A DNA stretch of 64,000 nt, taken from IMG/VR virus record IMGVR_UViG_3300010392_000400, positions 1 through 64,000 of that record; one strand, written 5' to 3'. Under the pieces are notes generated by a model, which searched no databases, was not told where the DNA came from, and saw nothing but the letters and a program-made list of their open reading frames with translations. This DNA comes from a virus. Of the stretch, positions 14,654 to 42,861 are shown piece after piece (position 1 is the stretch's first letter; the number at the start of each line of letters is the position of its first letter). The position numbers and the translations under genes are program-made.

Positions 14654-14833
14654 ATGTCTCACCTTATCATCTCAGGTATTGTGACCTTCTGTATCTTCGT
14701 GTACCTGTTGTTTCTCATAGTGGGTTGGATTAGCTTCATGCACATGATGTATACATTTGTTAAGTTCTTGGTAAGAAAGTACCTAGTCATACAAAGGCAC
14801 AAGGAAGGAATTCCTATGTCTGACCTTAAGTAA
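14654..14833 (+). CDS. Small single-pass membrane protein
   Basis: A 59-aa protein with AAGGAATTCCT upstream of ATG 14654. Residues about 4-40 are strongly hydrophobic (LIISGIVTFCIFVYLLFLIV), followed by a basic C-terminal tail (VRKYLVIQRHKEG). One or two closely spaced membrane helices. Probably an inner-membrane early protein; function unknown. Confidence 0.6.
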   Translation: MSHLIISGIVTFCIFVYLLFLIVGWISFMHMMYTFVKFLVRKYLVIQRHKEGIPMSDLK

Positions 14834-20989: not shown

Positions 20990-20999
20990 GGAGGTTCTT

Positions 21000-21953
21000 A
21001 TGAATTACCCAGACGGTGTAGCAGTCATTTTCACAGGTGACGCTGTTACTGTGTCCTATGGGCCCAGTATTAAAACTGTGAAGCGTGGTCAAGAGCAGTA
21101 CACCCCAGTAATGGAGCACTTGCGTTCTTGGGAAAACAAAGGTGTACACTACGGCTACGTAGCCAAGGAAGAGTGGATTGAGAGCTTACTTAATGCCTTC
21201 GAACCCTCTCGTGTCTTGGAATCATACCTAGGCTCTCTAGGAGAAGCATCAAAGATCACATACGAGAATGGCCGAGTGTTCTACGATGGCAAGGAACTCC
21301 ATAACACGGTGACAGAGCGTATCCGCGCCCTAGCCCGTGAAGGACTTACCATTGAGTACCTTTTGACGTTCTTGGACAGCCTGTTCCAGAATCCTTCGTA
21401 CCGCTCAGTAGAGCAACTGTACGGGTTCCTGGAGAAGCACAAGATGCCTATTACCGCAGGTGGGTGCTTCAAAGCGTACAAAGTCATCAAAAGCAATTTC
21501 ACGGATTGCTACACAGGGAATATTGACAACTCTGTGGGACGTACCGTGAAAATGAACCGTAACCGTGTCGAAGACAACCCTGATCTGACATGCTCCGCTG
21601 GGCTCCACGTATGTGCCCACGAGTACGCTATTGGGTTCTTCTACGGAAGTGGTCGTATCTTGGTCGAAGTCGAGATTAACCCTCGTGACGTTGTGTCCAT
21701 TCCAACGGATTACAACAACGCCAAGATGCGTGTATGTCAGTACAAGGTAACTGGGGTTCTTGAGGACCGGACTGATGTCCTTTCCAATCGCATTTACGAT
21801 GGGTACGATGCCCGTGTAGCCTTTGACGAAGACAGCCCGGATTTCGGAGATGAGTACGACGAATCCTGGGTGTGGTCTGAGGACGAGGAAGATTCGTACG
21901 ATCCCTATGATAATTGGGACGACGATGGCACGTACGATGATATTCCTTTTTAA
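21000..21953 (+). CDS. rIIB: rIIB-like protein
   Basis: A 317-aa protein. ATG 21000 has AAGGAGG 7 nt upstream and is preferred over an in-frame site at 20955 inside rIIA. The rIIB pattern is seen in the central LLTFLDSLFQNPSYRSVEQLYGFLEKH segment (landmark NPSYRSVEQLYGFL), the ITAGGCFKAYKVI motif, the CSAGLHVCAHEYA motif and the following I.VEINPRDVVSIP. The C-terminus is a very acidic Asp/Glu/Tyr tail. Adjacent to the rIIA homologue with an 11-bp gap. Confidence 0.85.
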   Translation: MNYPDGVAVIFTGDAVTVSYGPSIKTVKRGQEQYTPVMEHLRSWENKGVHYGYVAKEEWIESLLNAFEPSRVLESYLGSLGEASKITYENGRVFYDGKELHNTVTERIRALAREGLTIEYLLTFLDSLFQNPSYRSVEQLYGFLEKHKMPITAGGCFKAYKVIKSNFTDCYTGNIDNSVGRTVKMNRNRVEDNPDLTCSAGLHVCAHEYAIGFFYGSGRILVEVEINPRDVVSIPTDYNNAKMRVCQYKVTGVLEDRTDVLSNRIYDGYDARVAFDEDSPDFGDEYDESWVWSEDEEDSYDPYDNWDDDGTYDDIPF

Positions 21954-29761: not shown

Positions 29762-30256
29762 ATGACATTGTCTGATACACAATGGAATCAATCCCGTGGC
29801 GTTGCGTACTTCGCCAAACTTAACTACGAAAACCCCGATAAAGGTTACGAGGGTAATCGTCCGAATCTTCAGCTGTGCTTTGTTCCTGATGACCCCAAGG
29901 AATTTACCAAAGAGGGTCTGGAGCTCAAAGATGCTACTGAGAAGATTCCTGAGAAACACGTAAAGATTACCACGAAGTTTGTGGAGCGTCCTCTACGTGT
30001 CGTAGATGCCAAAGGCAATAGCCTTCCACACACTTTCATAGTAGGAAATGGGTCCGTTGTAAATGTACAGTGGTCGCCTAACGACTATGGCCGTGGTGTC
30101 AGTGCTATGCTTAACGGAGTTCAGATCATCGAACTTGTTGAGTTTGAGCCTGATGACAGTGCTTCGTTTTCCGAGGCGGAAGGTTTTGAGTACAACCCCG
30201 CTAGCGACGCCTCCTCTGCTAGCGATGAAAGTGCCAGAGCCAACGACGGCCTCTAG
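29762..30256 (+). CDS. Single-stranded DNA-binding protein (gp2.5-like)
   Basis: A 164-aa protein resembling T7 gp2.5: an N-terminal AYFAKLNYENPDKGYEG strand-loop segment, then LRVVDAKGNSLPHTFIVGNGSVVNVQW and VSAMLNGVQIIELVEFEPDD, which parallel the KGKKMEDVPIIGGGSKLKV and VMLVELATF blocks of gp2.5. The tail is acidic and Ser/Ala-rich but ends in ARANDGL, without the terminal Phe that gp2.5 uses to contact polymerase. Location between polymerase and nuclease genes supports the call. Confidence 0.6.
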   Translation: MTLSDTQWNQSRGVAYFAKLNYENPDKGYEGNRPNLQLCFVPDDPKEFTKEGLELKDATEKIPEKHVKITTKFVERPLRVVDAKGNSLPHTFIVGNGSVVNVQWSPNDYGRGVSAMLNGVQIIELVEFEPDDSASFSEAEGFEYNPASDASSASDESARANDGL

Positions 30257-30548
30257 CACTTCTCCTTGGGGGGCCACGCGCCCTGGCCCCCCAAGGCTTA
30301 CAAAGGAACATACTATAGAACGTATTATAGAAATCACAGTAGCAGTAGTAGTCGCCTTAGGTCTAGGAATCTTTGTCCTTACGCCCTTGGCGATGCTTCT
30401 AGGTGGTGTATCAGCCATGTTTTCCCTCGGACTCCTTATGGGGTTCGACGGCTTGTTTGGCTTTACCAATTTCCAAGTGGGGGCACTCCTTGGGTTCATA
30501 GCGTCGATCTTAGGCACGAATAACCTGAGAGACACGGTGATAGAATAG
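30225..30548 (+). CDS. Small membrane protein, start uncertain
   Basis: The frame is open from ATG 30225 to TAG 30548 (107 aa). The C-terminal 75 residues have two strong membrane spans (IIEITVAVVVALGLGIFVL and FQVGALLGFIASILG). The 5' part overlaps the SSB end and the 13-bp hairpin, so translation probably begins after the hairpin, perhaps at a non-standard codon near 30315 where AAAGGAA is well placed. Unknown function. Confidence 0.45.
   Translation: MKVPEPTTASSTSPWGATRPGPPRLTKEHTIERIIEITVAVVVALGLGIFVLTPLAMLLGGVSAMFSLGLLMGFDGLFGFTNFQVGALLGFIASILGTNNLRDTVIE
30264..30296 (+). terminator. Perfect 13-bp hairpin after the SSB gene
   Basis: CCTTGGGGGGCCA (30264-30276) and TGGCCCCCCAAGG (30284-30296) are exact reverse complements with a 7-nt loop, starting 8 nt after the SSB stop. 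No T-run follows, so it may protect the SSB mRNA 3' end or pause polymerase rather than terminate. Confidence 0.75.
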
Positions 30549-30560
30549 AAAGGACGTAAC

Positions 30561-30689
30561 ATGGAAAAAGTTACTGAATTCTTTGGTAAAATAAAGAACG
30601 GCTGGAACGGTCTACATCTTTTTATCAAGTGTGGCATCGTAGCCGTAGCACTTCTCATTGCGTTCCAAGCAATAGTCAACTTGTTCTAA
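30561..30689 (+). CDS. Tiny membrane protein
   Basis: A 42-aa protein from ATG 30561 with AAAGGA 8 nt upstream. An amphipathic N-terminal half (VTEFFGKIKNGWNGLHLFIK) is followed by one membrane helix (CGIVAVALLIAFQAIVNLF). Function unknown. Confidence 0.5.
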   Translation: MEKVTEFFGKIKNGWNGLHLFIKCGIVAVALLIAFQAIVNLF

Positions 30690-30699
30690 GGAGTACTAA

Positions 30700-31563
30700 G
30701 TGACCCTTAAGAAAAACTTGGGAACTCTTCTCCCTGATATCCACAGGATATTTGAAGGACCCCACGAAGTTAGCGAAGAAAACCTTGACCTCTTGGCCGA
30801 GAACGTCAAGGAAACAATACGTAGAGCCGTGCAGGAAGCCGGTGTCCCACGCGACTCTACGCTGAGAATGTCCGTACTGGGCACTCCCAACCGCAAACTG
30901 TGGTACTCCATGAAATATCCCAAGGAAGCCGAAGAGTCTTTGGCTGCACAGCAGCACATTAACTTTTGCTATGGGCATATCATAGAAGAGTTCCTCCTTT
31001 TCTTAGTCCGCGAGGCAGGACACGAGGTTGCTAACGAACAAAAGGAAGTCGAAGTCAACGGTGTCGTAGGGCACATTGACTGCGAAATTGACGGAGTCCC
31101 CGTAGATGTCAAGAGTGCGTCTGAGTGGGGTTTCAAGAAATTCAAAGATGGCAACCTACTCCGAGGGGACGATCCTTATGGGTACGTACACCAGATATCC
31201 GGGTACACAAATGCCCTTGGGAAGAACGAAGGCGCGTTCGTTGTAATGAACAAGAACCGAGGGGAGCTATGCGTCTTGGAGGTTCCTTCGTTCTTTATCG
31301 AAGACACGCCCAAGCGTATCGACGAAATCCGAGACGTCCTAGACAAAGAAGAAGTTCCTCCACGGTGTTACGACGACCAACCCTTTGGGAAAGCTGGTAA
31401 CCGAGAGCTAGTTATGTCGTGTGTGTTCTGCCCCTTCAAGTTCAAGTGTTGGCCTGAGACAAGGGTCTTCAGGTACTCAGATAAAGACAGGTTCCTCACC
31501 ACGGTGGTGTCGAAGCCTAAGGTAGACGAAGTTACTCAAGGGTACAAGGACGAGCTAACATGA
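30700..31563 (+). CDS. PD-(D/E)XK exonuclease (Cas4/RecB-like fold)
   Basis: A 287-aa protein starting at GTG 30700 with AAGGAG 8 nt upstream. The nuclease core has GHIDCEIDGVPVDVKSAS (Asp, then Asp-x-Lys) followed by YVHQISGYTNALG, the Q-x-x-x-Y motif of RecB-type nucleases. A C-terminal cluster (CVFCPFKFKCW, with an upstream PPRCYD) gives four Cys that could hold an iron-sulfur cluster as in Cas4 and AddB. It likely replaces T7 gp6 as the 5'-3' exonuclease for recombination and host-DNA breakdown. Confidence 0.8.
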   Translation: MTLKKNLGTLLPDIHRIFEGPHEVSEENLDLLAENVKETIRRAVQEAGVPRDSTLRMSVLGTPNRKLWYSMKYPKEAEESLAAQQHINFCYGHIIEEFLLFLVREAGHEVANEQKEVEVNGVVGHIDCEIDGVPVDVKSASEWGFKKFKDGNLLRGDDPYGYVHQISGYTNALGKNEGAFVVMNKNRGELCVLEVPSFFIEDTPKRIDEIRDVLDKEEVPPRCYDDQPFGKAGNRELVMSCVFCPFKFKCWPETRVFRYSDKDRFLTTVVSKPKVDEVTQGYKDELT

Positions 31564-31778
31564 TGGACTCACAAAGGCTAAGCAAGGTCTTAGACCAATT
31601 AAGCAAGGCTGGAAATGGTATGGGTACAAGAAACCCTGATGATTACACGTTTATGTTGACAGTTGGTGAGGCAATCGCCCTACGGGACTATATCTCTAGG
31701 CTTAAGGACAAGGAACGTATCTTAGACAGTCAAGGGAGTTCCGAGGCGGATTGGTTCTTTAATGAAATTCCAAAGTAA
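31560..31778 (+). CDS. Small hypothetical protein
   Basis: A 72-aa protein overlapping the nuclease stop (ACATGATG). Helical composition. Its last codons (encoding NEIPK and the TAA) lie inside the first copy of the 32-bp repeat, which is the duplicated start of the endonuclease gene. So in the ancestral order this gene ended inside the endonuclease start. Confidence 0.55.
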   Translation: MMDSQRLSKVLDQLSKAGNGMGTRNPDDYTFMLTVGEAIALRDYISRLKDKERILDSQGSSEADWFFNEIPK

Positions 31779-31793
31779 ATTTGAAGAAGTTAC
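31762..31793 (+). repeat. Direct repeat, upstream copy of the endonuclease gene 5' end
   Basis: Exact 32-bp match to 32136-32167, the first 32 bases of the endonuclease gene. Here it encodes the start MKFQSKFEEV and then diverges (ending at a TGA after 19 codons), giving a truncated pseudocopy whose stop overlaps the next start at 31818. It also carries the stop of the 31560 gene. Confidence 0.9.
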
Positions 31794-31817
31794 CGATGGG
31801 TACAAGGATACTATGAA

Positions 31818-32117
31818 ATGAAATGGAAAGATCGAAGAGTTATTTGTAGAGAGCATCTGTTTAAAGAAGGTGTCCCAGCGCCCTTCGCACTGTTACCTTA
31901 TAGAATAGGAGATACATGGTATTGGCTTTGTACTCCTAACTATAGGCGTTACGCATATACCACAGATAGTGATGGTGGCTGGGATGCTAACCTGTATAAA
32001 CACAATGAAACAGGGAAATCTTCCTATGGAGCACATTTTCCCAGTAACTTAGCTATACCTCTACTACTTCTAAGTACGGTCGTTGTTGTAATAGGAGGCT
32101 TATCTTTAGGTGGGTAA
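31818..32117 (+). CDS. Membrane protein encoded by an inserted gene
   Basis: A 99-aa protein with a soluble Trp/Tyr-rich N-terminal part (IGDTWYWLCTPNYRRYAY) and a C-terminal membrane helix (AIPLLLLSTVVVVIGG). It is the only gene between the two copies of the 32-bp repeat. A/T-richer third positions than its neighbours. The ATG overlaps the stop of the truncated endonuclease copy (ATGAAATGAAATGG). Unknown function. Confidence 0.6.
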   Translation: MKWKDRRVICREHLFKEGVPAPFALLPYRIGDTWYWLCTPNYRRYAYTTDSDGGWDANLYKHNETGKSSYGAHFPSNLAIPLLLLSTVVVVIGGLSLGG

Positions 32118-32135
32118 AATGCAACGTAATTTTCT

Positions 32136-32167
32136 ATGAAATTCCAAAGTAAATTTGAAGAAGTTAC
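32136..32167 (+). repeat. Direct repeat, functional copy (endonuclease start)
   Basis: Second copy of the 32-bp repeat; here it is the real 5' end of the endonuclease gene. Confidence 0.9.
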
Positions 32168-32534
32168 TTACGCAGTTCTCAAAGCCTTCAAAGGCATACT
32201 CGTAGGGTACGAAACAGAGAAATTGTACTATGCAATTCCAGCTAGGAAAGCTCAGTACACTCCTGACTTTATCCTAGAGAATAAAGCAAAGACCAAGAAG
32301 GTTTACATAGAGACTAAGGGGTACATGCGTCCTACGGACAGAGTTAAAATGCTACGGGTTAAGCGCAGTCATCCCGACTTGGATATCCGTATGATCTTCC
32401 AACGTGACAACAAGATTAAGGGAACTAAGATGAACTACTCAGATTGGGCAGTTCGTCACGGGTTTCCCTACGCCATCGGAGAAAAGGACGAGGTGATCAA
32501 GATTTGGGCTAAGGAACTACGAAAGGAAAGCTAA
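32136..32534 (+). CDS. Endonuclease I, Holliday-junction resolvase (T7 gp3-like)
   Basis: A 132-aa nuclease with the T7 gp3 active-site layout: Glu8/Glu9 (FEEV), Asp44 (YTPDFIL), Glu59 and Lys61 (YIETKGYM), followed by the RVKRSHPDLDIRMIFQR block that matches the HPELDIRIVF block of gp3. It resolves branched DNA and helps degrade host DNA. The first 32 bp are an exact direct repeat of 31762-31793. Overlaps the next gene by 1 nt. Confidence 0.88.
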   Translation: MKFQSKFEEVTYAVLKAFKGILVGYETEKLYYAIPARKAQYTPDFILENKAKTKKVYIETKGYMRPTDRVKMLRVKRSHPDLDIRMIFQRDNKIKGTKMNYSDWAVRHGFPYAIGEKDEVIKIWAKELRKES

Positions 32535-32806
32535 TGAGCGGTGGTACTACAGAAGAATACGTAAAAGACTTCTTGAGCTCCTTGGTCAACAACGCCATGT
32601 GGGTTGACGTAGACGGAGAGATTACCTTTGATGTATCTGAGGATACTTGCGGCATGGTCATGTCCTTAGCGTCAGACTTTGTCTTTGGAAATCCTGAGGA
32701 TCGGTTCGAAGAGATGGAGCCCATGGAGGATAACAAGTCTGTGTCCACTTCGCCCTTCGATGATGACGAGGAAGACGAAGACACTCATGAGAGTGATTTC
32801 TATTAA
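32534..32806 (+). CDS. Small acidic protein
   Basis: A 90-aa strongly acidic protein (ending DDDEEDEDTHESDFY). ATG overlaps the stop of endonuclease I. Possibly a DNA-mimic or regulator, like other acidic products here; no direct evidence. Confidence 0.6.
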   Translation: MSGGTTEEYVKDFLSSLVNNAMWVDVDGEITFDVSEDTCGMVMSLASDFVFGNPEDRFEEMEPMEDNKSVSTSPFDDDEEDEDTHESDFY

Positions 32807-33155
32807 AGACCAAGAGTTCTCTCTTGGTGAAATTGAGTATATCGTAGCCCACCGGGGCTTATTCCAAAGAGCCCCTATCCCTGATTACGGAAGTGCCCTA
32901 GACGAACCTTACCTGTGGAGAGCGGTGTTAGACAGGGCTCTCCTTGACTACATCAAAGGTCCAAAGGAAGTTGGAAGGGACTTTGCTAGAGTTTCAACGT
33001 GGTTGAACTATAAAGACCTAGACGAAGAAGGAGACGCTACGGGAGACTTTGGAGCTGTGTGTGCGTACGCCATAGTTGACGAGGACACAGTACGTACAAT
33101 GTTTAACAAGTGTAGATACGAGGAGATACAAGGTGATGGCAAAGGACTACATTAA
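32787..33155 (+). CDS. Hypothetical protein
   Basis: A 122-aa protein starting at ATG 32787, 20 nt inside the acidic gene (an upstream in-frame start would lengthen the overlap to over 100 nt). Blocks: GEIEYIVAHRGLFQRAPIPD; LWRAVLDRALLDYIKG; GAVCAYAIVDED. No recognised family. Confidence 0.6.
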   Translation: MRVISIKDQEFSLGEIEYIVAHRGLFQRAPIPDYGSALDEPYLWRAVLDRALLDYIKGPKEVGRDFARVSTWLNYKDLDEEGDATGDFGAVCAYAIVDEDTVRTMFNKCRYEEIQGDGKGLH

Positions 33156-33357
33156 CAACAAAGGAGCTTCTAGGAAGCTCGCAGAACTCATTAACACGTA
33201 CTGGAAGAAGAACGGAAAACCCTGGGTCCGCGCCTACGTAGAAGCTGAGGAGCACCCTACGGCAGACGGTGTGTACAATGAAATCTATGTTATTCGTAGT
33301 AACCTGGGGTTCAAGTGGAACAAGGGTGGCCAGTACTACTCGGCAACCAAGCTGTGA
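33136..33357 (+). CDS. Small hypothetical protein
   Basis: A 73-aa protein; ATG 33136 follows AGGAG at 33121 and is preferred over an in-frame site at 33076. A compact, aromatic, basic protein (LAELINTYWKKNGKPWVRAY; NLGFKWNKGGQYY). Overlaps its neighbours on both sides. Confidence 0.55.
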   Translation: MAKDYINNKGASRKLAELINTYWKKNGKPWVRAYVEAEEHPTADGVYNEIYVIRSNLGFKWNKGGQYYSATKL

Positions 33358-33452
33358 CCCTGTTTACTCTGGGGTTTCTCCTTGGGAGCGCCTTAACGCT
33401 TGTAGCTGAGTTTCTTTACATCAGGCACTTAGTCTATAAATCTAGGTATTAG
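33354..33452 (+). CDS. Tiny membrane peptide, GTG start
   Basis: A 32-aa peptide, GTG overlapping the previous TGA (GTGA). LFTLGFLLGSALTLVAEFLY is one membrane helix, followed by a basic tail (IRHLVYKSRY). Probably translated by coupling. Confidence 0.4.
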   Translation: MTLFTLGFLLGSALTLVAEFLYIRHLVYKSRY

Positions 33453-33453
33453 A

Positions 33454-33759
33454 ATGGGACGCTGTGTAAAAAGAAGAGTTTTAGCGGTAGCTTTCGTTGA
33501 TGGAGAAGTACTCATAGGAGAGAACGGGGTCGAAAATGAACAAGAGGTTTGCCCCCGTAAAGACATGAAAACTGGGGAGGGGTGGGAACTTTGTAAGTCT
33601 GTTTGTGCTCAAAGCGGCCACGCAGAAATAGACCTAATTAAAAAAGCTGATGGTAACTTAAAGGGGGCTAACGTCGTTATTTTTAATCACTATTGGGTGT
33701 GTGACTCTTGTAGGAAAGCCTTAGAAGAAGCTAATGTAGGTGAGGTTATCTTTGGGTAA
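33454..33759 (+). CDS. Deoxycytidylate/cytidine deaminase-like protein
   Basis: A 101-aa compact deaminase fold. The zinc site is His56-Ala-Glu58 (SGHAEIDLI) with Cys83 and Cys86 (WVCDSCRKAL), the HAE...CxxC signature of the dCMP/cytidine deaminase family. Extra cysteines (33, 47, 51) may bind a second metal. It probably feeds dUMP/dTMP synthesis and stands 157 bp upstream of the ribonucleotide reductase. Confidence 0.75.
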   Translation: MGRCVKRRVLAVAFVDGEVLIGENGVENEQEVCPRKDMKTGEGWELCKSVCAQSGHAEIDLIKKADGNLKGANVVIFNHYWVCDSCRKALEEANVGEVIFG

Positions 33760-33834
33760 AGACCTTCGCCTCCCTTGTGATTGCCATAGGTATTACCCTA
33801 GTAGTACGAAAAGCCCTTAATTACTAAGGCGTCC

Positions 33835-33863
33835 TTGACTTCCCCAGATCACTATGATATAGT
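33835..33863 (+). promoter_or_regulatory. Strong sigma70 promoter for the ribonucleotide reductase gene
   Basis: TTGACT (33835-33840), 17-bp spacer, TATAGT (33858-33863); each hexamer matches consensus at 5 of 6 positions. The transcript would start about 45 bp before the reductase ATG at 33917. The gap 33760-33916 has no credible ORF. Confidence 0.8.
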
Positions 33864-33916
33864 CAAAGTCTTTTGTGCCTTAGCAGGTACTAACCTCCCT
33901 AAGAGAACAGGCAACC

Positions 33917-35857
33917 ATGTCCTTGAACCCCTTTGAAAAACTTTCCAACCCAACTTATAGTGCATTCATAGCGCTAAGCCGCTACGCCCGTTGGCTCCCC
34001 GAGGAAAACCGAAGGGAGACTTGGGAAGAAACTGTAGATCGCTACTTCACGTTCATGGACGGACACCTGAAGAAGAAGCACAAGTACGCCCTTCCTAAGG
34101 GCCTTAGGAAAGAACTTCGTGACGCTGTGTACAACTTAGAAGTTATGCCCAGTATGAGAGCCCTGATGACCGCTGGCCCTGCCCTAGAACGATGTAACGT
34201 GGCAGGGTTCAACTGTTCCTACCTTCCTATAGATCACCCTCGCGCCTTTGACGAGCTTTTGTACATCCTTATGTGTGGTACAGGGGTAGGGTTCTCTGTG
34301 GAAAAGGAGAACGTCCACAAACTTCCCGAAGTAGATGAAAACCTCGAACCTTGTGACACGACGATAATCGTAGAGGACTCCAAGGAAGGGTGGGCTAAGG
34401 GCACTAGACAGCTTATCTCCCTTTTGTACGCAGGTCAAATTCCTGGATGGGACACAAGCCAACTAAGGAAGGCTGGGGCTCGCCTCGTTACCTTTGGTGG
34501 ACGCTCCTCTGGTCCAGAGCCCCTAGAGGACCTCTTCCAGTTCGTCGTAGACATCTTCATAGCAGCCCAAGGAAGACAGCTAACGTCCTTGGAGTGCCAC
34601 GACATAGCCTGTAAGATCGGAGATGTCGTAGTCGTAGGAGGTGTACGCAGAAGTGCCTTGATATCCCTTAGTGATATCGAAGACATACGGATGAGGGAGT
34701 CTAAGACAGGGCAATGGTACGATACTCATGGGTGGCGTAAGCTGGCCAACAACTCAGCGGTGTACTCCCGAACCCCAGATATGCAACTGTTCTTCGAAGA
34801 GTGGCACTCCCTGTTTAAGTCCAAGTCTGGGGAGCGGGGTATTTTCAACAGGCAAGCCGCGTACAACGTCATGCCTGAGAGACGCCTAAGGAAGGTTGAG
34901 CTAAAGAACTCCGTATCTTGGATTCCCTTTGGGTGCAACCCGTGTTCTGAGATCATCCTTAGACCTTATCAATTCTGTAACCTCACTGAGATCGTAGCCC
35001 GTGCTTGGGATACAGAGGAAACTTTAGACCGCAAGGTATTCCTTGCTACAGTCCTAGGGACTCTCCAAGCAACTCTTACGGACTTCAAGTACCTTAGGAA
35101 GATTTGGCAGAAGAACACGGAGGAAGAGCGACTCCTCGGGGTATCTATCACCGGGATCATGGACAGCCATATCTTAGCTGGTCGAGGGTATGAAGAAGGG
35201 CTTGAGTTGTTCAAAGAACACGCCGTAGCTACAAACAAGGAATTCTCGAAGAAGATCGGCATCCCCCAGAGCGCCGCGATTACTTGTGTCAAACCCTCAG
35301 GGACCGTGTCCCAGCTTGTGGATAGCGCCTCTGGCATTCACCCGAGACACTCAGAGTTCTATATCCGTAGGGTCCGTCAAGACACGAAGGACCCCCTTAC
35401 TCAGTTCATGATAGCCCAAGGGTTTCCTAGTGAACCTGATGTCACAGACAGGGCAAATACCACAGTGTTTTCCTTCCCCATGGCCGCGCCTAAGGGGGCC
35501 TTGACACGCGATGATATATCTGCTATAGACCAACTAGAATACTGGAAAGCCTACCAAGAACACTGGTGTGAGCATAAGCCTTCTTGTACTGTGTACATCC
35601 AGGAAGACGAGTGGCTCAAGGTAGGAGACTGGGTCCACAGTCATTTTGACATGATGTCTGGTGTGTCCTTCTTTCCCTTCGTGGACCACGTATATCAGCA
35701 AGCCCCTTACGAGGAAATTACTGAGGACGACTACGAAGAGCTAGTAAAGGAAATGCCCAAGGATGTCGATTGGACAAGGCTGCAAGAGTACGAAAAGGAA
35801 GATACAACAGTGGGTTCCCAAGAGCTTGCCTGTCAAGGGGGAGTCTGCGAAATCTAA
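33917..35857 (+). CDS. Adenosylcobalamin-dependent ribonucleotide reductase (class II, monomeric type)
   Basis: A 646-aa reductase; RTPR of Lactobacillus is 739 aa. The active-site loop is GCNPCSEIIL near residue 341 (NPCGEI in most), with a following QFCNLTEIV Cys and an N-terminal redox Cys in NVAGFNCSY near residue 99. The C-terminus ELACQGGVCEI gives the shuttle cysteine pair (Cys639, Cys644) used for re-reduction by thioredoxin. It reduces ribonucleotides to deoxyribonucleotides with coenzyme B12 from the host. No small subunit is encoded nearby, as expected for class II. Confidence 0.88.
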   Translation: MSLNPFEKLSNPTYSAFIALSRYARWLPEENRRETWEETVDRYFTFMDGHLKKKHKYALPKGLRKELRDAVYNLEVMPSMRALMTAGPALERCNVAGFNCSYLPIDHPRAFDELLYILMCGTGVGFSVEKENVHKLPEVDENLEPCDTTIIVEDSKEGWAKGTRQLISLLYAGQIPGWDTSQLRKAGARLVTFGGRSSGPEPLEDLFQFVVDIFIAAQGRQLTSLECHDIACKIGDVVVVGGVRRSALISLSDIEDIRMRESKTGQWYDTHGWRKLANNSAVYSRTPDMQLFFEEWHSLFKSKSGERGIFNRQAAYNVMPERRLRKVELKNSVSWIPFGCNPCSEIILRPYQFCNLTEIVARAWDTEETLDRKVFLATVLGTLQATLTDFKYLRKIWQKNTEEERLLGVSITGIMDSHILAGRGYEEGLELFKEHAVATNKEFSKKIGIPQSAAITCVKPSGTVSQLVDSASGIHPRHSEFYIRRVRQDTKDPLTQFMIAQGFPSEPDVTDRANTTVFSFPMAAPKGALTRDDISAIDQLEYWKAYQEHWCEHKPSCTVYIQEDEWLKVGDWVHSHFDMMSGVSFFPFVDHVYQQAPYEEITEDDYEELVKEMPKDVDWTRLQEYEKEDTTVGSQELACQGGVCEI

Positions 35858-35867
35858 AGGAGACTTC

Positions 35868-36101
35868 GTGACCAAGAAAAATGTAAGAGCCACTAAGTTC
35901 TATTCTCAGGCGTGTAGCGTAGTGGCTACTACAACTAAGTACATACGGTTCTTAAACAAGGAACCTAACCAGTTAGACCTAGTAAAATCCATAGGAACTT
36001 TAGTAGACCTAGAAAACTCTGTAGAAGCTTTCCTAGGGACTATCCGCGAAACAAAGGAGAACTTAACAGCTAAGTTTTCCCTTGCCCCACCAGAGGAGTA
36101 G
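35868..36101 (+). CDS. Small helical protein, GTG start
   Basis: A 77-aa protein. GTG 35868 has AAAGGAGA 8 nt upstream and is preferred over an in-frame site inside the reductase gene. Helical (FYSQACSVVATTTKYIRFLN; LENSVEAFLGTIRETKENL). Unknown. Confidence 0.55.
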   Translation: MTKKNVRATKFYSQACSVVATTTKYIRFLNKEPNQLDLVKSIGTLVDLENSVEAFLGTIRETKENLTAKFSLAPPEE

Positions 36102-36104
36102 CCA

Positions 36105-36539
36105 ATGCCTAAAAGACCAAGCGTGGTCGTCTCAAGGGAAGACGCAAAGATCATCCGAGAAAATCAATTAGAGTACGACCACACCCCATTAGAAGATACG
36201 TATGCTACTGAGGATGCTCCTCAGTTAGACCTTGACTTAGACAATGGAATCCCTCTGGTTAACGTAGCCCACCCAAGTATTTTCCCAGTAAGTGCACTTG
36301 AGACAGCTGAGATTGAAATTCCTTTGGGTGCTTTAGACGAACAAGTGGGTGGGGATCACTACAAAGATTGCAAGATTCAACCTTTAGAGTACGCCTACGC
36401 TAACGACCTGAATGTCTGTGAACACGCTATTGTCAAGTACATTACTAGGCACCGTAAGAAAGGCCAAGTCCAAGACCTTGAAAAGGTCATTCACTATGCT
36501 CGGCTAGAAGCCAAGCTCACCTATGGAGAAGATATCTAA
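36105..36539 (+). CDS. DUF3310-domain protein
   Basis: A 144-aa protein. Residues about 80-140 carry the DUF3310 pattern: QVGGDHYKDCKIQPLEYAYAN, CEHAIVKYITRHRKKGQ, DLEKVIHYARLE. This small helical domain is widespread in phages of Gram-negative and Gram-positive hosts and is often near nucleotide-metabolism genes. The N-terminal 75 residues are an unusual acidic extension. Biochemical role not established. Confidence 0.8.
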   Translation: MPKRPSVVVSREDAKIIRENQLEYDHTPLEDTYATEDAPQLDLDLDNGIPLVNVAHPSIFPVSALETAEIEIPLGALDEQVGGDHYKDCKIQPLEYAYANDLNVCEHAIVKYITRHRKKGQVQDLEKVIHYARLEAKLTYGEDI

Positions 36540-36841
36540 TGTCCACAAAAGAACCAAGAGTTCGCCTTAACCAACCTGAGCAAGAACTGTACGAAGCAGA
36601 CCTCGAAAAAGCGTTCATCCAATTTAACAATATCCGTGTAGGACGTTGGGAAATCAAAGAACACGACGAATTCGACAGAGTCTTTGCACGTATCATGAAC
36701 AAGTCACCCTACGACCTCACAGGTCCTTTAACCTTTACTAACTGTGTGACCGGTGATGTTTTTATTATTTCCCCTAGTATGTCAATGTGTGTTGCTGCGG
36801 GATTCGATAAGGACACAGTAGGCACTGGACTTGACCACTAA
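36539..36841 (+). CDS. Small hypothetical protein
   Basis: A 100-aa protein overlapping the DUF3310 gene by 1 nt and the next gene by 11 nt. N-terminal helix (QELYEADLEKAFIQFNNI) and beta-rich C-terminal half (GPLTFTNCVTGDVFIISPS). Unknown. Confidence 0.55.
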   Translation: MSTKEPRVRLNQPEQELYEADLEKAFIQFNNIRVGRWEIKEHDEFDRVFARIMNKSPYDLTGPLTFTNCVTGDVFIISPSMSMCVAAGFDKDTVGTGLDH

Positions 36842-37655
36842 TGAGCATCTCCACGCCTTCCTTGGATACGACGAAAAGCAAGACCTCGCGTGGGAAGTCT
36901 GCGCAGAATCCATCCGTCAAAGCGCTTCAAGGCCTGTATCCATTCACAAGTTGGACCATAGAATGCTACGGGACCTTGGATTGTTCGACCGGGAGTGGGT
37001 CGTCGAAGGAAAAACCGGAAGGTACAAAGACACCGGAGACGGAAAGCCAGCCAGTACTCAGTTTTCGCACAGCAGGTTCTTGGTTCCTGCACTGGTAAAG
37101 CACCTTGGCATTAACCAAGCGCACAACGCTTTGTTTGTTGACTCAGACTTCGTGTTTCTTGATGACCCCTATGAGTTGCTCTGGGAGTGTGGTCTTACCG
37201 AAGGCAATCATACACAGTTCCCCGTACACGTAGTCAAGCATGAGTACAACCCGGACAAGGGTCTTAAGATGGACGGACAAGTCCAAGTACCCTATGCCAT
37301 GAAACTCTGGAGTTCCTTGATGGTCTTTAACCTGAGGGACCCAAGAATCTACGACCTCACAGCGAACAAGGTTAATACTATGACTGGTAGGGACCTCCAC
37401 CAGTTCCAGTGGCTTAACCCTAAGAAAGACCCTCTCTGGAACAGTGATAATTTCTTAGGTAGAATCTCGGAACGGTGGAACTTTATCCCAGACCACTCAG
37501 AACCTAGAGTACCTGAGAAGGACATAGGGGCCGTACACTGGACAGAAGGCATTCCTTCTATTCCTGGGTACTCAAATTGTAAGTACGCAGATATGTGGAA
37601 TGACGTGTGTCGCAAAGTGTACCGCACCAAACTAAAGATGGATTTTTATGAATAA
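36831..37655 (+). CDS. Glycosyltransferase (GT-A fold, GT8-like)
   Basis: A 274-aa protein with a TTG start (36831); the conserved N-terminus HAFLGYDEKQDLAWEVCAES starts within a few codons, so an internal ATG (36963) would remove it. The DxD metal site is NALFVDSDFVFL near residue 104. SSLMVFNLRDPRI and a HW motif near the C-terminus (VHWTEGIPS) also fit. Its stop overlaps the start of a truncated copy of the 37929 gene. Confidence 0.75.
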   Translation: MTTNEHLHAFLGYDEKQDLAWEVCAESIRQSASRPVSIHKLDHRMLRDLGLFDREWVVEGKTGRYKDTGDGKPASTQFSHSRFLVPALVKHLGINQAHNALFVDSDFVFLDDPYELLWECGLTEGNHTQFPVHVVKHEYNPDKGLKMDGQVQVPYAMKLWSSLMVFNLRDPRIYDLTANKVNTMTGRDLHQFQWLNPKKDPLWNSDNFLGRISERWNFIPDHSEPRVPEKDIGAVHWTEGIPSIPGYSNCKYADMWNDVCRKVYRTKLKMDFYE

Positions 37656-37692
37656 GTATCACGTAGTAACATCGTTCTCAGATAAGCTTTGA
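37648..37692 (+). pseudogene. Truncated duplicate of the 5' end of the 37929 glycosyltransferase gene
   Basis: ATG 37648 begins MNKYHVVTSFSDKL and ends at TGA 37690-37692. The 45 bp 37654-37698 match 37935-37979 with two differences; one difference is the premature stop (TGA against TGG). The next 45 bp (37693-37737) hold no gene. This is the left-hand scar of a gene insertion. Confidence 0.85.
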
Positions 37693-37737
37693 AAAAGTGG
37701 TGTACGAAAGACTAGCAAAGGAATAGTAAGAAATACT

Positions 37738-37932
37738 ATGGAATATGACTACGAAGTAACAGCTGGACAGATGATTGTCTGGTGCATTATTTTCCTTCCC
37801 ATCTTCTTTGTGATGGCCCCTGTTTTTTTCCTTTGGTGCTTAGCCCTTTTAGGCATTACCTTTGCGGGTTTTCTCCTAATTGCCACCCTTGGCGCTAAGA
37901 TAGACAAGATTCTGGAAAGGAACTCTAAGTGA
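37738..37932 (+). CDS. Membrane protein encoded by an inserted gene
   Basis: A 64-aa protein lying between the truncated and complete copies of the glycosyltransferase 5' end. Two closely packed hydrophobic spans (MIVWCIIFLPIFFVMAPVFF; WCLALLGITFAGFLLIATLG). A charged C-terminus (KIDKILERNSK) overlaps the next GTG start. Unknown function. Confidence 0.6.
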   Translation: MEYDYEVTAGQMIVWCIIFLPIFFVMAPVFFLWCLALLGITFAGFLLIATLGAKIDKILERNSK

Positions 37933-38804
37933 CCAAGTACCACGTAGTAACATCGTTCTCAGATAAGCTTTGGAAAAGTTACGCTCAACATACTGTCCCT
38001 AGTGTCTACGCTAACCTCCCCGAGGGGGTTGGCCTCACAGTGTGGTACAACGGGGACTATGATCCCAAGTGGAAAGAAGCTCTGCCTGAGGCGGAGTTCA
38101 AAGACCTTAACGCTGTGGCAGACTACCAGTACTACCGCCAGAAGTACAAGGGAGTCCAAGCTCCCGAAGGAGTCGAAGAAGGACACAAGTTTCGCTTCGA
38201 CCACCTTCCCTTCTGGAACAAGGTGTGCGCTCTGTACAAAGAAGCTATGGATTTGTTTGTACACGGTGCAGACTATGAATATCTTGTGTGGATCGACGCT
38301 GACGTTCTTTCCCAAAAGAAAATTCGAATTAAAGACTTCGACCGTTGGACTAACGATGCTGACGTAGCCACCTTGGTACGAGGAAAGCCTTGGAATACTT
38401 GGGACACTGGATTCTTAGCTATTCGTTGGAATGCGCTTAAACTTGTTGAAGAGGTCTTTGACCTGTACATGAGTGGACGTATCTTTGACCACAACGAGTG
38501 GCACGATGCGTACTTGTTCACAGTGATGTACAAGAGATACAAGGAAGACCTTAGGCTCAAAGACCTTAACATGATGTCCTCCTCTGCTCACCCCTTTGAC
38601 TCTTCGATCCTTCCTCCGTATCTCATGCACCTTAAGGGCCCTAGGAAGAAGACCTTGGAAATTCTAGACCCCCGCTCTCTCAACGGGGTGTTTACTTCGC
38701 TCTACACAGGGGTCATAAACGAGAGGAAAGAGACCGTAGGAACCCTAAAGGAAAACGGAGACATTGTTCACCCCAATGGGGGCATAAGGAGTATCTATGA
38801 GTAA
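37929..38804 (+). CDS. Glycosyltransferase-like protein
   Basis: A 291-aa protein with GTG start overlapping the previous TGA (AAGTGACC). The region around YLVWIDADVL (Asp-Ala-Asp near residue 123) is a GT-A DxD motif, followed by WNTWDTGFLAIRW and DHNEWHDAYLF. Similar proteins without assigned substrate are found in marine phage genomes. The duplicated start shows it once overlapped the upstream glycosyltransferase. Confidence 0.7.
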   Translation: MTKYHVVTSFSDKLWKSYAQHTVPSVYANLPEGVGLTVWYNGDYDPKWKEALPEAEFKDLNAVADYQYYRQKYKGVQAPEGVEEGHKFRFDHLPFWNKVCALYKEAMDLFVHGADYEYLVWIDADVLSQKKIRIKDFDRWTNDADVATLVRGKPWNTWDTGFLAIRWNALKLVEEVFDLYMSGRIFDHNEWHDAYLFTVMYKRYKEDLRLKDLNMMSSSAHPFDSSILPPYLMHLKGPRKKTLEILDPRSLNGVFTSLYTGVINERKETVGTLKENGDIVHPNGGIRSIYE

Positions 38805-39348
38805 ATCAAAACTTATCTCAGACGAGTACGTAGCTTTGAACAAAAATCTTCACGCAGATAACCCTCTGTACGGGTCGAAGTCCTGGAAGCAGCTTGAGAA
38901 CGTAGTCCACTCTCTTGACCTTAAAGCAGGAGATACCCTGTTGGACTACGGATGTGGCAAGGCGTCCCTCCAAAGGGAACTTGCCAAGAGAAGTATTAAC
39001 GTAGTTAGCTACGATCCTGCTATTTCTGCGTATGCTAAGCACCCCTCAGAGTACAAAGAGTATCCCTTTGAGTACGTAGTATGTATGGATGTTCTGGAGC
39101 ACGTAGAACCTGACATGCTCCCCCACGTACTCGACGATATCCAAAAGAGCTTCACAAAGAAGGCGTTTATCCTTATCTCCACGGAACCTTCGAATAAGAC
39201 CCTTAAGGACGGAAGGAACGCCCATTTGATTATTCAGGCCCGTAATTTCTGGATGGACAGGCTGGCAGACCGAGGGTTCAACGTAGAGAAGTTAGTAGAC
39301 AATCGCAAGGGCTGGGTAGGTGTCCTTTGCGCCAAGGAGTCGAGCTAG
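38797..39348 (+). CDS. Class I SAM-dependent methyltransferase
   Basis: A 183-aa Rossmann methyltransferase. Motif I is TLLDYGCGKASLQREL, motif II region VVSYDPA, and motif IV VVCMDVLEHVEPDML, as in small-molecule or glycan methyltransferases (UbiG/Methyltransf_23 type). Overlaps its upstream neighbour by 8 nt. Probably acts on a sugar or glycan made by the adjacent transferases. Confidence 0.78.
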   Translation: MSKSKLISDEYVALNKNLHADNPLYGSKSWKQLENVVHSLDLKAGDTLLDYGCGKASLQRELAKRSINVVSYDPAISAYAKHPSEYKEYPFEYVVCMDVLEHVEPDMLPHVLDDIQKSFTKKAFILISTEPSNKTLKDGRNAHLIIQARNFWMDRLADRGFNVEKLVDNRKGWVGVLCAKESS

Positions 39349-39349
39349 C

Positions 39350-40033
39350 ATGGGATTTAAAGTAGCTACAACAGCAGAGGTATACGAAGAACTCCATAGC
39401 AACGGAGCTAGTGCCAGTAGTTCAGTAGATAGGATCAAGGCTATAACTGGGGAGTTAAAAAATGCTTTGGAAAGTGGTGCTGAAGGTGACGTATATGAAT
39501 TTGGAGTATACAAAGGCTCTACTTCGTTGGTCTTAGCAGTATCACTAGCACACCCTGGTATAAATAAGAAATTGTACTTGTACGATACTTTTGAAGGTAT
39601 GCCAAAGGGTGACCCTGAAGTAGATACTAAGATTAAAATTTCCAGAGGGCCTTTACCTGAAGGAGCTTTAGCCTTTTCTGAAGAAAACCTTATAAGTTTC
39701 GTAGAAGAAAAAACTGCAAAGCTAACTGGAAAACCCCCTGCCTTTACCACAATAAAAGGTGACATAAGGGAAACGTACAAAGGGTGTTCTCCAATAGCTT
39801 TCGCTGTTATGGACGTAGATTACTACGACACTACAAAGTTTCTCTATGATACTATGGCACCCAATCTTTCCGTAGGTGGCGTTGTATACGTAGACGATTA
39901 CTTCAATTGGGAGGGAGCTAGGAAGGCTACTGATGAATTCTTAGACAAAAACACAGAATTCGAAGGGTACCTTGTTCGTCCTAAGTGGTTCTTTATTCGG
40001 AGAAAATTGAAGGGAAATTCTAATGGGGTTTAA
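39350..40033 (+). CDS. TylF/MycF-type O-methyltransferase, inserted gene
   Basis: A 227-aa protein beginning MGFKVATTAEVYEEL. Motifs VYEFGVYKGSTSLVLAVSL, LYDTFEGMP and AVMDVDYYDTTKFLYD with a downstream VVYVDDY match TylF/macrocin O-methyltransferases. ATG 39350 lies 1 bp after the previous stop. The first 15 bp (ATGGGATTTAAAGTA) are repeated, with one change, at the start of the next gene (40023). Codon use is more A/T-rich than both neighbours. Confidence 0.78.
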   Translation: MGFKVATTAEVYEELHSNGASASSSVDRIKAITGELKNALESGAEGDVYEFGVYKGSTSLVLAVSLAHPGINKKLYLYDTFEGMPKGDPEVDTKIKISRGPLPEGALAFSEENLISFVEEKTAKLTGKPPAFTTIKGDIRETYKGCSPIAFAVMDVDYYDTTKFLYDTMAPNLSVGGVVYVDDYFNWEGARKATDEFLDKNTEFEGYLVRPKWFFIRRKLKGNSNGV

Positions 40034-40601
40034 AGTATCCCAAGAACAAGAGGAGATCGAAGCCCTCCTAAAAGAGGTCGGAGAGATTTCTTCGTACTTG
40101 GAAATTGGTTCGTACGCTGGGGAATCCCTTCTGTACGTTTACAAGTACCTTAAGGAAGGCTCCACTGTGGTCTTGGTAGACTTGCCTGTGAACCAAAAGG
40201 CTAGGGACCACCTCATGAAAGTCATAGAGACCCTAGGTAAAGCTGGGATCACAGTTCACCTTATCTCAGGGGACTCCCAAGACCCCTTTATTATAGAGAA
40301 GGCCAGAGAGTTTGCTCCTAGTGGGTTCTACGACTTAACTTTTATCGACGGTAACCACGACTTTGATTACGTTGTGAAAGACCTTCACGCCTACGGCCCT
40401 ATGTCCAAACGTATTGCTATGCACGACATTGACCCTAGGGCTATCAAAGCTAACAAAGCTAAACACGGATACGAGAAACCGAGTGCCGCCCACGTATGGC
40501 AAGTTCTTAAGATGTCTGGAGAGACACAAGAGTTTATTAAACAGGGATCATCCAAACCTAGAGGTCTGGGATTACTAAGAGGAACAAGTATAAGTGCCTA
40601 A
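40023..40601 (+). CDS. Class I SAM-dependent methyltransferase
   Basis: A 192-aa protein with ITSYLEIGSYAGESLLY-type motif I (sequence EISSYLEIGSYAGESLLYV, landmark LEIGSYAGES) and FIDGNHDFDYVVKDL near residue 105, the pattern of cephalosporin-hydroxylase/CmcI-like methyltransferases. Starts MGFKVSQEQ, sharing its first five residues with the inserted TylF-type gene. Overlaps it by 11 nt. Confidence 0.72.
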   Translation: MGFKVSQEQEEIEALLKEVGEISSYLEIGSYAGESLLYVYKYLKEGSTVVLVDLPVNQKARDHLMKVIETLGKAGITVHLISGDSQDPFIIEKAREFAPSGFYDLTFIDGNHDFDYVVKDLHAYGPMSKRIAMHDIDPRAIKANKAKHGYEKPSAAHVWQVLKMSGETQEFIKQGSSKPRGLGLLRGTSISA

Positions 40602-41418
40602 AACACCTGAAATAGAACTAGAGGAAATGCTGGAGAGGTTCAAAGCGGACCACGAAGCTAAAGGACTAGCCCTCTCTACAGAGACGAAATACTCTGGGGG
40701 CAAGGTATCTGAGAGTAACCCTCTGCGTATTGTAACGTGGTTTTGGAACGACCCAGAAGCTAAGAACCTAGCGTTCTTTGAGTGGACCCCAGACCACGTC
40801 CATAAACTTGCCGCAGGGTTCAAACGGCACCTTAAGATTCCTCACGAGTTCTGTGTTGTGACAGACAGAGGGTCTGAGCTAGACGCTAGTAAGGTCCGTA
40901 TCATCCCTATGTGGGACGACCTGAGAAACTGGAAGAGGTGTTACACACGACTCAAAGCCTTCTCCCCGGAGATGTACAACACCATAGGTCCACGGTTTGT
41001 CTCGGTAGACCTAGACACCCTGATCGTAGGGGACATCACTTCGATCTTTGATCGCCCTGAACCCTTCGTAGGGTACCGGGATTCCAAGAACCCTCTGTGT
41101 TACTCAGGGGCTTTGTGGATGAAGGACTACGAGGCAGAGAACCAAGTCTGGGAGACCATACGCCTCGTACGTGCCTTGGACCTTGGGGAAGCTCGGTACG
41201 TAGGGTCTGACCAGTGCTGGATTACTACGGCCATTGGCCCTAAGTTGCGCCCACGGTGGTCGAGGGAGGACGGTATCTACGACTTTTGGAATATCGAAGG
41301 GTTGCCTAAGCTCCCTGAGAATTCCAAGATCATCTTTTTTAACGGTATGACCAGGGATATGTCTATGAAGAAATTCCAAGACACTTGTCCTTGGATCGAA
41401 GAACACTGGAAGGAGTAA
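40594..41418 (+). CDS. Glycosyltransferase (GT8-like)
   Basis: A 274-aa protein, GTG start overlapping the previous gene by 8 nt. FVSVDLDTLIVGDITSIFDRP near residue 140 is the DxD-type metal site; SGALWMKDYEAENQVWE and GSDQCWIT blocks fit sugar-nucleotide transferases. It has a 40-residue helical N-terminal extension. Substrate unknown. Confidence 0.72.
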   Translation: MPKTPEIELEEMLERFKADHEAKGLALSTETKYSGGKVSESNPLRIVTWFWNDPEAKNLAFFEWTPDHVHKLAAGFKRHLKIPHEFCVVTDRGSELDASKVRIIPMWDDLRNWKRCYTRLKAFSPEMYNTIGPRFVSVDLDTLIVGDITSIFDRPEPFVGYRDSKNPLCYSGALWMKDYEAENQVWETIRLVRALDLGEARYVGSDQCWITTAIGPKLRPRWSREDGIYDFWNIEGLPKLPENSKIIFFNGMTRDMSMKKFQDTCPWIEEHWKE

Positions 41419-41421
41419 CTT

Positions 41422-41637
41422 ATGGGTAGCATCGAATGGGATTGTGCTGGTAAGACAGCTTTGTTTTTTGGAGGGATACTTCTTTGGCCGATTGGGCTTG
41501 GCTACGGAATAGCCACAGAAAACAGGGCTTTGCTATTACTTCTCATAGCTTCCCTTATACTAGGAGGTATAGGAGTACTCGCTGTGAACTTTTATCGAAT
41601 TTGTGCCAGAGAAAAGAGGATTAAAAACCATGACTAA
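41422..41637 (+). CDS. Small two-helix membrane protein
   Basis: A 71-aa protein with AAGGAG upstream of ATG 41422. Spans at about 12-30 (ALFFGGILLWPIGLGYGIA) and 36-56 (ALLLLLIASLILGGIGVLA), and a basic C-terminal tail. Stop overlaps the next ATG region by 8 nt. Unknown. Confidence 0.6.
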   Translation: MGSIEWDCAGKTALFFGGILLWPIGLGYGIATENRALLLLLIASLILGGIGVLAVNFYRICAREKRIKNHD

Positions 41638-41947
41638 CGAAGTAACCAATACCCAAGGTATCTGGATTGAAACAGTATGTGTCCCTCTGCCTTCCGCCGT
41701 AGTTGGAGGATTTGACCCGAAGGGCCTTTGGGTTATCACGAAGAAGAACGAAGAACCCCCTATGCCTTTAATGGGTTCTGCCCCAGATGTTCTCCATTAT
41801 GATATCTCAGGTCAGTGGCTCCCGTTCAGTGAGAACACTTTGTTCTTTGAAACACCGGAGCAAGCTGAGAGATGTGCTAAGAAAATCTTGGCCTTTACCA
41901 AGGAAACACGCTCTGTTGAAGAGACTAACGTAACGGAGTTGAATTAG
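41630..41947 (+). CDS. Hypothetical protein
   Basis: A 105-aa protein starting at ATG 41630 (AGAGGA upstream), 8 nt inside the previous gene. No recognised domain (GIWIETVCVPLPSAVVGG; ENTLFFETPEQAERCAKKIL). The next gene starts on its stop. Confidence 0.55.
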   Translation: MTNEVTNTQGIWIETVCVPLPSAVVGGFDPKGLWVITKKNEEPPMPLMGSAPDVLHYDISGQWLPFSENTLFFETPEQAERCAKKILAFTKETRSVEETNVTELN

Positions 41948-42861
41948 TGGCAGCTAAGCACGTCAAAGTAAAGCCTGTAGACTGTGAGCCCGATGAAGTC
42001 ATAGCACGGAATATAATCCATAATTGCCAGATGATAAAGAACTGGCTTGGCCCGTGTAAGACCCACGACATGCAAGCGTGGTTGTTCTCTGCTGGCCCTT
42101 CCTTAGACTTCGCTACAAAGGAGATGTTTCCAAAGAAGTACTTTGATGGGCTTCCTCGGGACTCCTATCGTATCTTCTGTATCAAACACGCTCTCCCAGC
42201 CCTCAAAGAAGCTGGGGTTATCCCGGACTTCTGTGTGGCCCTTGACCCTCGGGAGATCAAAGGGACCTCTACACACGGGAAACCCCGTGAGGAGCTCTAC
42301 GCTGCTGCCCCTAAAGAAACAACGATGCTCATAGCATCCATGACACACCCTAGCGTTACCAAGTACCTCCTAGATCGTGGGTACAAAGTTGTAGGGTGGC
42401 ACGCCGCCTCAGGAGCTTTGAACTCCTTGTTAGAACAAGGTATCATGAAACAGTGTATCCAACTGGACGGGGGGACTTCTTCTGCTATGCGAACACTGTC
42501 CATTGCCCACCACCTAGGGTTCCGAGAAGCCAACCTTGTAGGCTTTGATTGTTCCTTGGAGGGAGAACCTAAAGAGAACGAGTTACAGCCTTCAGACAAA
42601 CCTGGAGGCCCTGAGAGGTACAAGTACTTCGAGGTCAAGAACCCCAAGGACAAAAGGGATCAGTTTGAGTTCTGGGCCTCTGGAGAGCTAGTAGCCCAAG
42701 CCCAAGATATCGAAGCTGCTTTGGCCAATGCCAAGTTAGCAGACCTAGAGCTAAGGTTCTACGGACTGGACCCAGAGAACAGCTACGGTGGTAACGTAGT
42801 AGAGCACACTAAGAATTTGACTAAGTTCCCTTTATACGAAGAAAGGTTCCCAAATGTTTGA
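41947..42861 (+). CDS. DUF115 / MptE-like protein
   Basis: A 304-aa protein, GTG start in TAGTGG overlap. It has the DUF115 pattern: AWLFSAGPSLDFA (the G-x-GPSL nucleotide-binding loop), CVALDPREI, TMLIASMTHPSVTKYL, DGGTSSAMRTLSIAHHLGF and ANLVGFDCSL. The family includes flagellin-glycan transferase-type proteins and archaeal 6-hydroxymethylpterin diphosphokinase. Within a glycan island a role in sugar transfer is the simpler reading. Confidence 0.75.
   Translation: MAAKHVKVKPVDCEPDEVIARNIIHNCQMIKNWLGPCKTHDMQAWLFSAGPSLDFATKEMFPKKYFDGLPRDSYRIFCIKHALPALKEAGVIPDFCVALDPREIKGTSTHGKPREELYAAAPKETTMLIASMTHPSVTKYLLDRGYKVVGWHAASGALNSLLEQGIMKQCIQLDGGTSSAMRTLSIAHHLGFREANLVGFDCSLEGEPKENELQPSDKPGGPERYKYFEVKNPKDKRDQFEFWASGELVAQAQDIEAALANAKLADLELRFYGLDPENSYGGNVVEHTKNLTKFPLYEERFPNV

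Follow-up and report, generated by a model that had tools for sequence, protein, structure and literature searches.

The closest described counterpart of the locus analysed here is gene 68 of Island3, one of the Cluster I mycobacteriophages. There an extra gene of 85 residues is flanked by a partial duplication, 50-60 bp long, of a neighbour, and the published account (Pope et al. 2011, PMC3029335) allows either gain of the gene, in an exchange with a partner that is not known, or its loss by recombination between the copies. Gene 68 is a small orphan gene, like the one described below, and a near-identical phage without it exists. In phage mosaicism generally, exchange at or near the edges of genes keeps the neighbours working, and most of the joints are traceless. 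Morons are small extra genes which relatives do not have, with a promoter and terminator of their own. In T4-type phages, promoter-stem-loop cassettes (PeSL) reportedly form short repeats bordering small genes that can be exchanged; those repeats are promoter-terminator units, whereas the repeats considered here are gene starts.

In a 64 kb stretch of viral DNA (the window; 64,000 nt of a virus record of 69,628 bases) a gene for a small membrane protein of 64 aa, mem64, stands between two glycosyltransferase genes, GT1 and GT2, and is preceded by a broken copy of the GT2 start. We consider it likely that this copy is a scar, the recombination trace of a small membrane-protein gene gained at the GT1-GT2 junction (case 2). 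Both an extra gene that is absent from the same junction of relatives and a duplication of about 50 bp of a flanking gene are found here, and the Island3 precedent makes the window a variant of known phage mosaicism. In Island3, genes 67 and 68 share their 3′ ends, whereas in the window the downstream gene has its 5′ end repeated; the window differs also in a repeat length bounded below by a stop/start overlap and in a second scar (case 1) that is a chimera of two genes. A near-identical phage differing only by the insert, absent among the relatives found, is a feature of the published example and not of the mechanism. The neighbours are kept working as in other mosaics, but here the overlap leaves a readable trace. 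Like a moron, mem64 is a small extra gene that relatives lack; a scan for the sigma-70 consensus showed no promoter-like site between the GT1 stop (37655) and the mem64 start (37738), and expression of mem64 probably relies on the operon.

All components of case 2 lie on the plus strand. GT1 (36831..37655, an open reading frame of 274 aa) has tblastn relatives in CcrColossus and Mosig, two phages in which the annotation reads nucleotide-diphospho-sugar transferase or putative glycosyltransferase. Its stop codon TAA (37653-37655) falls inside the scar (37648..37698, 51 nt), the reading frame of which comprises 14 codons and ends at TGA 37690-37692, 45 nt before mem64. The scar is followed by a tail of 39 nt (37699..37737), which serves as the mem64 leader and carries AAAGGA upstream of mem64, and then by mem64 itself (37738..37932), whose best 19-residue hydropathy mean of 2.66 marks a strong hydrophobic stretch. 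The mem64 TGA overlaps the GTG start of intact GT2 (37929..38804, 291 aa) by 4 nt, so GT2 is likely still translated via coupling.

GT2 had no match in Pfam or PHROGs or in genome contigs, and solved structures were found by sequence for neither GT1 nor GT2. Its AlphaFold model (pLDDT 84.8) was matched by Foldseek in the PDB to glycogenin (best E 5e-9) and alpha-1,3-galactosyltransferase, with TM about 0.4-0.5 for glycogenin. The DxD motif marks GT-A enzymes, and D123-A124-D125 is invariant in a 14-row alignment of GT2. Judged by its predicted fold together with this motif, GT2 is a GT-A glycosyltransferase. Pfam, PHROGs, PADLOC and the fetched loci gave no recognised relatives of mem64 or of mem99, the corresponding gene of case 1. 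Among the fetched loci mem64 was matched only in the window, and viral contigs held no relatives; in phages, at E up to 10, the best values (E 3 for mem64, E 4 for mem99) are not meaningful. The leaders of the two genes gave a weak gapped match. For either protein, action at the membrane of the host, for instance in superinfection exclusion, is no more than a guess. No DNA relatives of the region were found in phages. The phage terminase is nearest to that of Pelagibacter phage HTVC023P and similar phages (35-40% identity). Adjoining rIIA- and rIIB-like genes occupy 18560-21953, and this same phage has endonuclease I, a pol I-type DNA polymerase and a gp2.5-like protein.

The preliminary description of this DNA, made from the sequence alone, had noticed a copy of the GT2 start at 37648 with the GT1 stop inside it and a 64-aa membrane-protein gene between the copies, and all of this is borne out. 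The direct repeat 37649-37698/37930-37979 is identical at 46 of 50 nt, and its length can be given as 45-51 nt. The two changes in 45 bp described earlier are correct for the encoded residues (2 of 15 codons, N2/T2 and stop15/W15) and not for the bases, of which five differ, at positions 1, 5, 6, 12 and 45. These are A/G in the start codon (scar/GT2), two bases of codon 2 (AAT/ACC), TAT/TAC, and TGA/TGG at codon 15, which indeed creates the stop. All of them except the TGA lie within the first 12 nt. The TGA may be a mutation or may be part of the joined DNA. The present role of the scar is only to supply the GT1 stop and a 14-codon reading frame, and merging of the two copies of the GT2 start would yield an in-frame GT2 again.

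The second locus, case 1, has the same architecture, as the preliminary description had proposed: the copied start of the downstream gene encloses the upstream gene's stop, and a gene with a hydrophobic stretch separates the copies. Here, again on the plus strand, a Cas4-type nuclease gene (30700..31563, phrog_1990 2e-39) is followed by p72 (31560..31778, 72 aa), whose stop at 31776-31778 falls within the first half of the scar (31762..31793). This half is the exact first 32 nt of endonuclease I (32136-32167, 32/32 nt). The second half (31794..31821) resembles a diverged nuclease 3′ end (..VTDGYKDTMK and stop) and runs up to mem99 (31818..32117, 99 aa, with a C-terminal hydrophobic stretch), beyond which intact endonuclease I of the T7 gp3 type follows (32136..32534; PF05367 2.3e-23, phrog_945 7.2e-32). 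In both cases the copies begin at the start codon.

Where does the second half of the case 1 scar come from? The word GAAGTTAC (31786-31793), common to the two sources, is continued by CGATGGGTACAAGGATACTATGAAATGA beyond the 32-nt copy, and the in-frame translation EEVTDGYKDTMK, closed by a stop, compares with EVTQGYKDELT and stop at the end of the window's own nuclease. Counted on the sequence, 18 of 28 nt agree with 31536-31563 after the shared word, with the stops in register. The nuclease C-terminus ranked first among the 247 open reading frames of at least 60 aa in the window (score 37, next 25). Among 1664 unique C-termini of all fetched loci the window nuclease (46) and the nuclease of G003 (38; ending VTAGYKDKIKG and stop) came first, and ranks 3-4 were tied at 29, one of the two being the G002 nuclease. 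Since nuclease C-termini match this tail best, the case 1 scar is a chimera of an endonuclease I start and a diverged nuclease end. A donor should then have the order nuclease, cargo, endonuclease I; such a donor-like order is found in G008, where small genes, two of them with hydrophobic stretches, lie between the nuclease and endonuclease I. The 32 nt are identical and yet the nuclease tail is diverged, which implies either mosaic parents or an exchange that went back to recipient DNA at the conserved start; one exchange with a single, uniformly diverged donor does not predict this pattern. By analogy, the 3′ end of a donor GT1 was considered as the source of the case 2 tail, and this was not supported: the GT1 C-terminus ranked only 86th of 247 window reading frames for the tail frame EKVVYERLAKE-stop and 61st of 247 for LKKWCTKD-stop. 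No C-terminus stood out above background for 37699-37737 among the 1664 either, and so a full chimera can be demonstrated in case 1 alone.

Repeats were scored over the whole 64 kb window without gaps (match +1, mismatch -2) at distances of 40-1500 bases. The case 2 and case 1 repeats scored 39 and 32, only eight repeats reached at least 18, and the top score in 60 block shuffles was 19; the two repeats thus far exceed chance. Other repeats of the window deserve mention. A repeat of 26/27 nt (14640-14666/14802-14828) spans the start of a hydrophobic gene of 59 aa together with its ribosome-binding site; the intact copy comes first, and the copy at 14802 is a five-codon remnant (MSDLK and stop) at the end of that gene, possibly a third scar. 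Within a minus-strand gene of 1589 aa, 55550-55603 and 56513-56566 form a direct repeat of 52/54 nt, 963 bases apart. An exact GC-rich, hairpin-like unit of 32 nt (13056-13087/13134-13165, 78 bases apart) is terminator-like. A repeat survey of the relatives, used only as a pointer to L041, L083 and the window repeats and not for counts, drew attention to a tandem array with an 84-base period in L083 (1100-2259).

Comparison of the junction in related phages had been suggested as a check, and for this comparison GT1/GT2 neighbours were gathered from IMG/VR. The set of 84 contigs comprised 80 of 92 confirmed relatives plus L022, L023, L024 and L122. Both the GT1 stop and a GT2 match were present in 74, which were taken as scorable; among the other ten, GT1 was cut in two and a GT2 match was absent in eight, one of these at the locus end. 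In 66 of the 74 the junction is empty: the two genes overlap, or directly follow one another with no more than 30 nt in between. The remaining eight hold another small gene in 210-222 nt: a family of about 74 aa in six contigs (L068-L071, L075, L100) and a 75-aa gene in two (L038/L039, that is, L002/L003). Many contigs are near-identical, so that the 66 and the 8 are not independent events. None of the 74 has the scar, and a long copy of the GT2 start was found in 0 of the 8 occupied junctions (best 15-17 of 30 nt, compared with 26/30 in the window and 30/30 in case 1). As a rule, then, the junction is empty and the two genes abut or overlap; three different genes occupy it in three phage groups, and the long scar is peculiar to the window. 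With most junctions empty, eight filled by other genes and no scar among them, the insertion reading of the preliminary description is supported. GT1 and GT2 of the relatives are 60-63% identical to those of the window, and loss cannot be the sole story when the empty form is the commonest across such diverged phages. The six-contig occupant matches phrog_1811, of unknown function. Its homologues (36-44% identical) lie kilobases upstream of GT1 in L081, L092 and other contigs whose junction is empty, and this gene therefore seems to have been moved or copied.

The nearest relative with an empty junction is L016. Its GT1 stop TAA is situated within the GT2 start (ATGACTAAG; junction sequence GGCTTCTATGACTAAGTACCACG), and the two genes overlap there by 8 nt, ATGACTAA. 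This arrangement is the state that would be expected before the insertion in the window. L003, with GT1 86.5% and GT2 80.8% identical to those of L016, carries its occupant flanked on both sides by the 8-nt overlap word of L016. Elsewhere in L016 (1578-2645) about 356 codons are inserted in frame into a ribonucleotide reductase homologue, at its conserved NPCSE site; free of stop codons and ending in HN ahead of S, the insert is intein-like, and the counterpart in the window (33917-35857) is without it.

A tandem duplication of the GT2 region within one genome, followed by loss or replacement of most of the first copy, with mem64 coming from elsewhere or arising in place, would leave the same repeat as a gain by recombination. 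It would agree with the distribution of differences at nt 13-44, where the scar differs from GT2 at no position and from L016 at two. We nevertheless regard such a history as unlikely. It leaves unexplained both the chimeric scar of case 1 and the fact that this junction is cleanly occupied by different genes in relatives, and mem64 gave no match to GT2 in the search.

Still less probable is that the GT2-start copy functions as a translated relay or attenuator of mem64, possibly with readthrough of the TGA. The scar is probably translated, because its start overlaps the GT1 stop, and apart from TGA 37690 its frame is open into mem64; an in-frame continuation of this kind is, however, expected one time in three by accident. 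The RNA fold is no better than that of shuffles (z 0.23), and no Rfam match was found in 30000-42000. As evidence against insertion, the preliminary description had named translation of the truncated copy and its conservation as a leader peptide in many phages lacking the insert. In phages without the insert the GT2-start "copy" is the whole GT2 gene, and among the eight occupied contigs none preserves a truncated one. Insertion of a small mobile element with target-site duplication, although direct repeats flank a cargo gene at two loci, is largely refuted and highly improbable: the repeat lengths vary (32 nt, 45-51 nt, and 8 nt in L003), the two cargo genes match neither each other nor any entry in Pfam, PHROGs or PADLOC, the case 1 insert begins with the end of a nuclease gene, and the constant-length duplication and shared ends of transposable elements, MPMEs or homing endonucleases are lacking, as is any match to a mobility gene.

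The preferred reading, gain of a gene by recombination, finds parallels at another junction of the relatives. The window's genes 40023 and 40594 overlap, and their homologues in L016 are two bases apart; between those of L003 lies a remnant, MTEEIDYIEDKENL and stop (9037-9081). Its 3′ part agrees at 23 of 25 nt with the terminal part of a gene of 60 aa that is intact in L004 (..LIDYIDDKEH and stop), and the best match in 200 shuffles of L004 was 18 nt. In L004 and L005 two successive gene starts, ATGRCCGAAGGAACGAAGATGA, lie 184 nt apart. These remnants support the view that the gene-gain process recurs in relatives, and together with the case 1 chimera they bear out the repeated process proposed in the preliminary description. 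Its suggestion to date the event by the divergence of the copies is unsafe, since the two copies need not share a parent and GT2 is unusually conserved at its 5′ end: among codons capable of synonymous change, 10 of 13 of the first are identical between GT2 and L016, against 76 of 161 over the whole gene (hypergeometric P 0.025).

How could such a scar have formed? The ancestor would have had the 8-nt overlap seen in L016, with the GT1 stop within the GT2 start. In the recombinant, the recipient GT2, cut after about 45 nt, would have been joined to donor DNA bringing mem64 and an intact GT2 start. In case 1 the endonuclease I start would have been fused at GAAGTTAC to the diverged nuclease 3′ end that preceded the cargo in the donor. 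Off-register strand annealing at short homology, between phages in co-infection, may account for these joints, and the likely agents are all encoded in the window: endonuclease I, the Cas4-type nuclease and a gp2.5-like ssDNA-binding and annealing protein (29762..30256, plus strand, phrog_112 1.7e-10). The searched records, from which ones very near the window may be missing, yielded no donor phage. Exchanges would survive only when they preserve the GT1 end and a functional GT2, and so the overlapped part of the GT2 start must occur twice. An insertion that spares both genes must, because of the stop/start overlap, duplicate at least the overlapped bases. The minimum is 8 nt at the GT1-GT2 junction and 17 nt at the junction of p72 and endonuclease I; the observed repeats of 45-51 and 32 nt exceed these minima. 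The anatomy of L003, with exactly 8 nt common to both sides, is consistent with the minimum.

Additions of small genes by phages into packed overlapping operons, without harm to the neighbours, are usually untraceable. The pair of scars in this genome, of which one can be read as a chimera, and the empty or otherwise occupied junctions of relatives together form a concrete signature of gene gain that can be searched for. We propose tentatively, as an idea that may well prove wrong, that in compact overlapping phage operons small genes are cassettes exchangeable at fixed junctions and that the overlap itself sets the scar. Literature searches found no published rule tying gene overlap to duplicated starts, which is not proof of absence. 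If the proposal is true, such fossils would tell the recipient copy from the donor copy, the repeat would permit exact excision restoring the coupled gene pair, and duplicated starts could be used to spot gene gain from single genomes.
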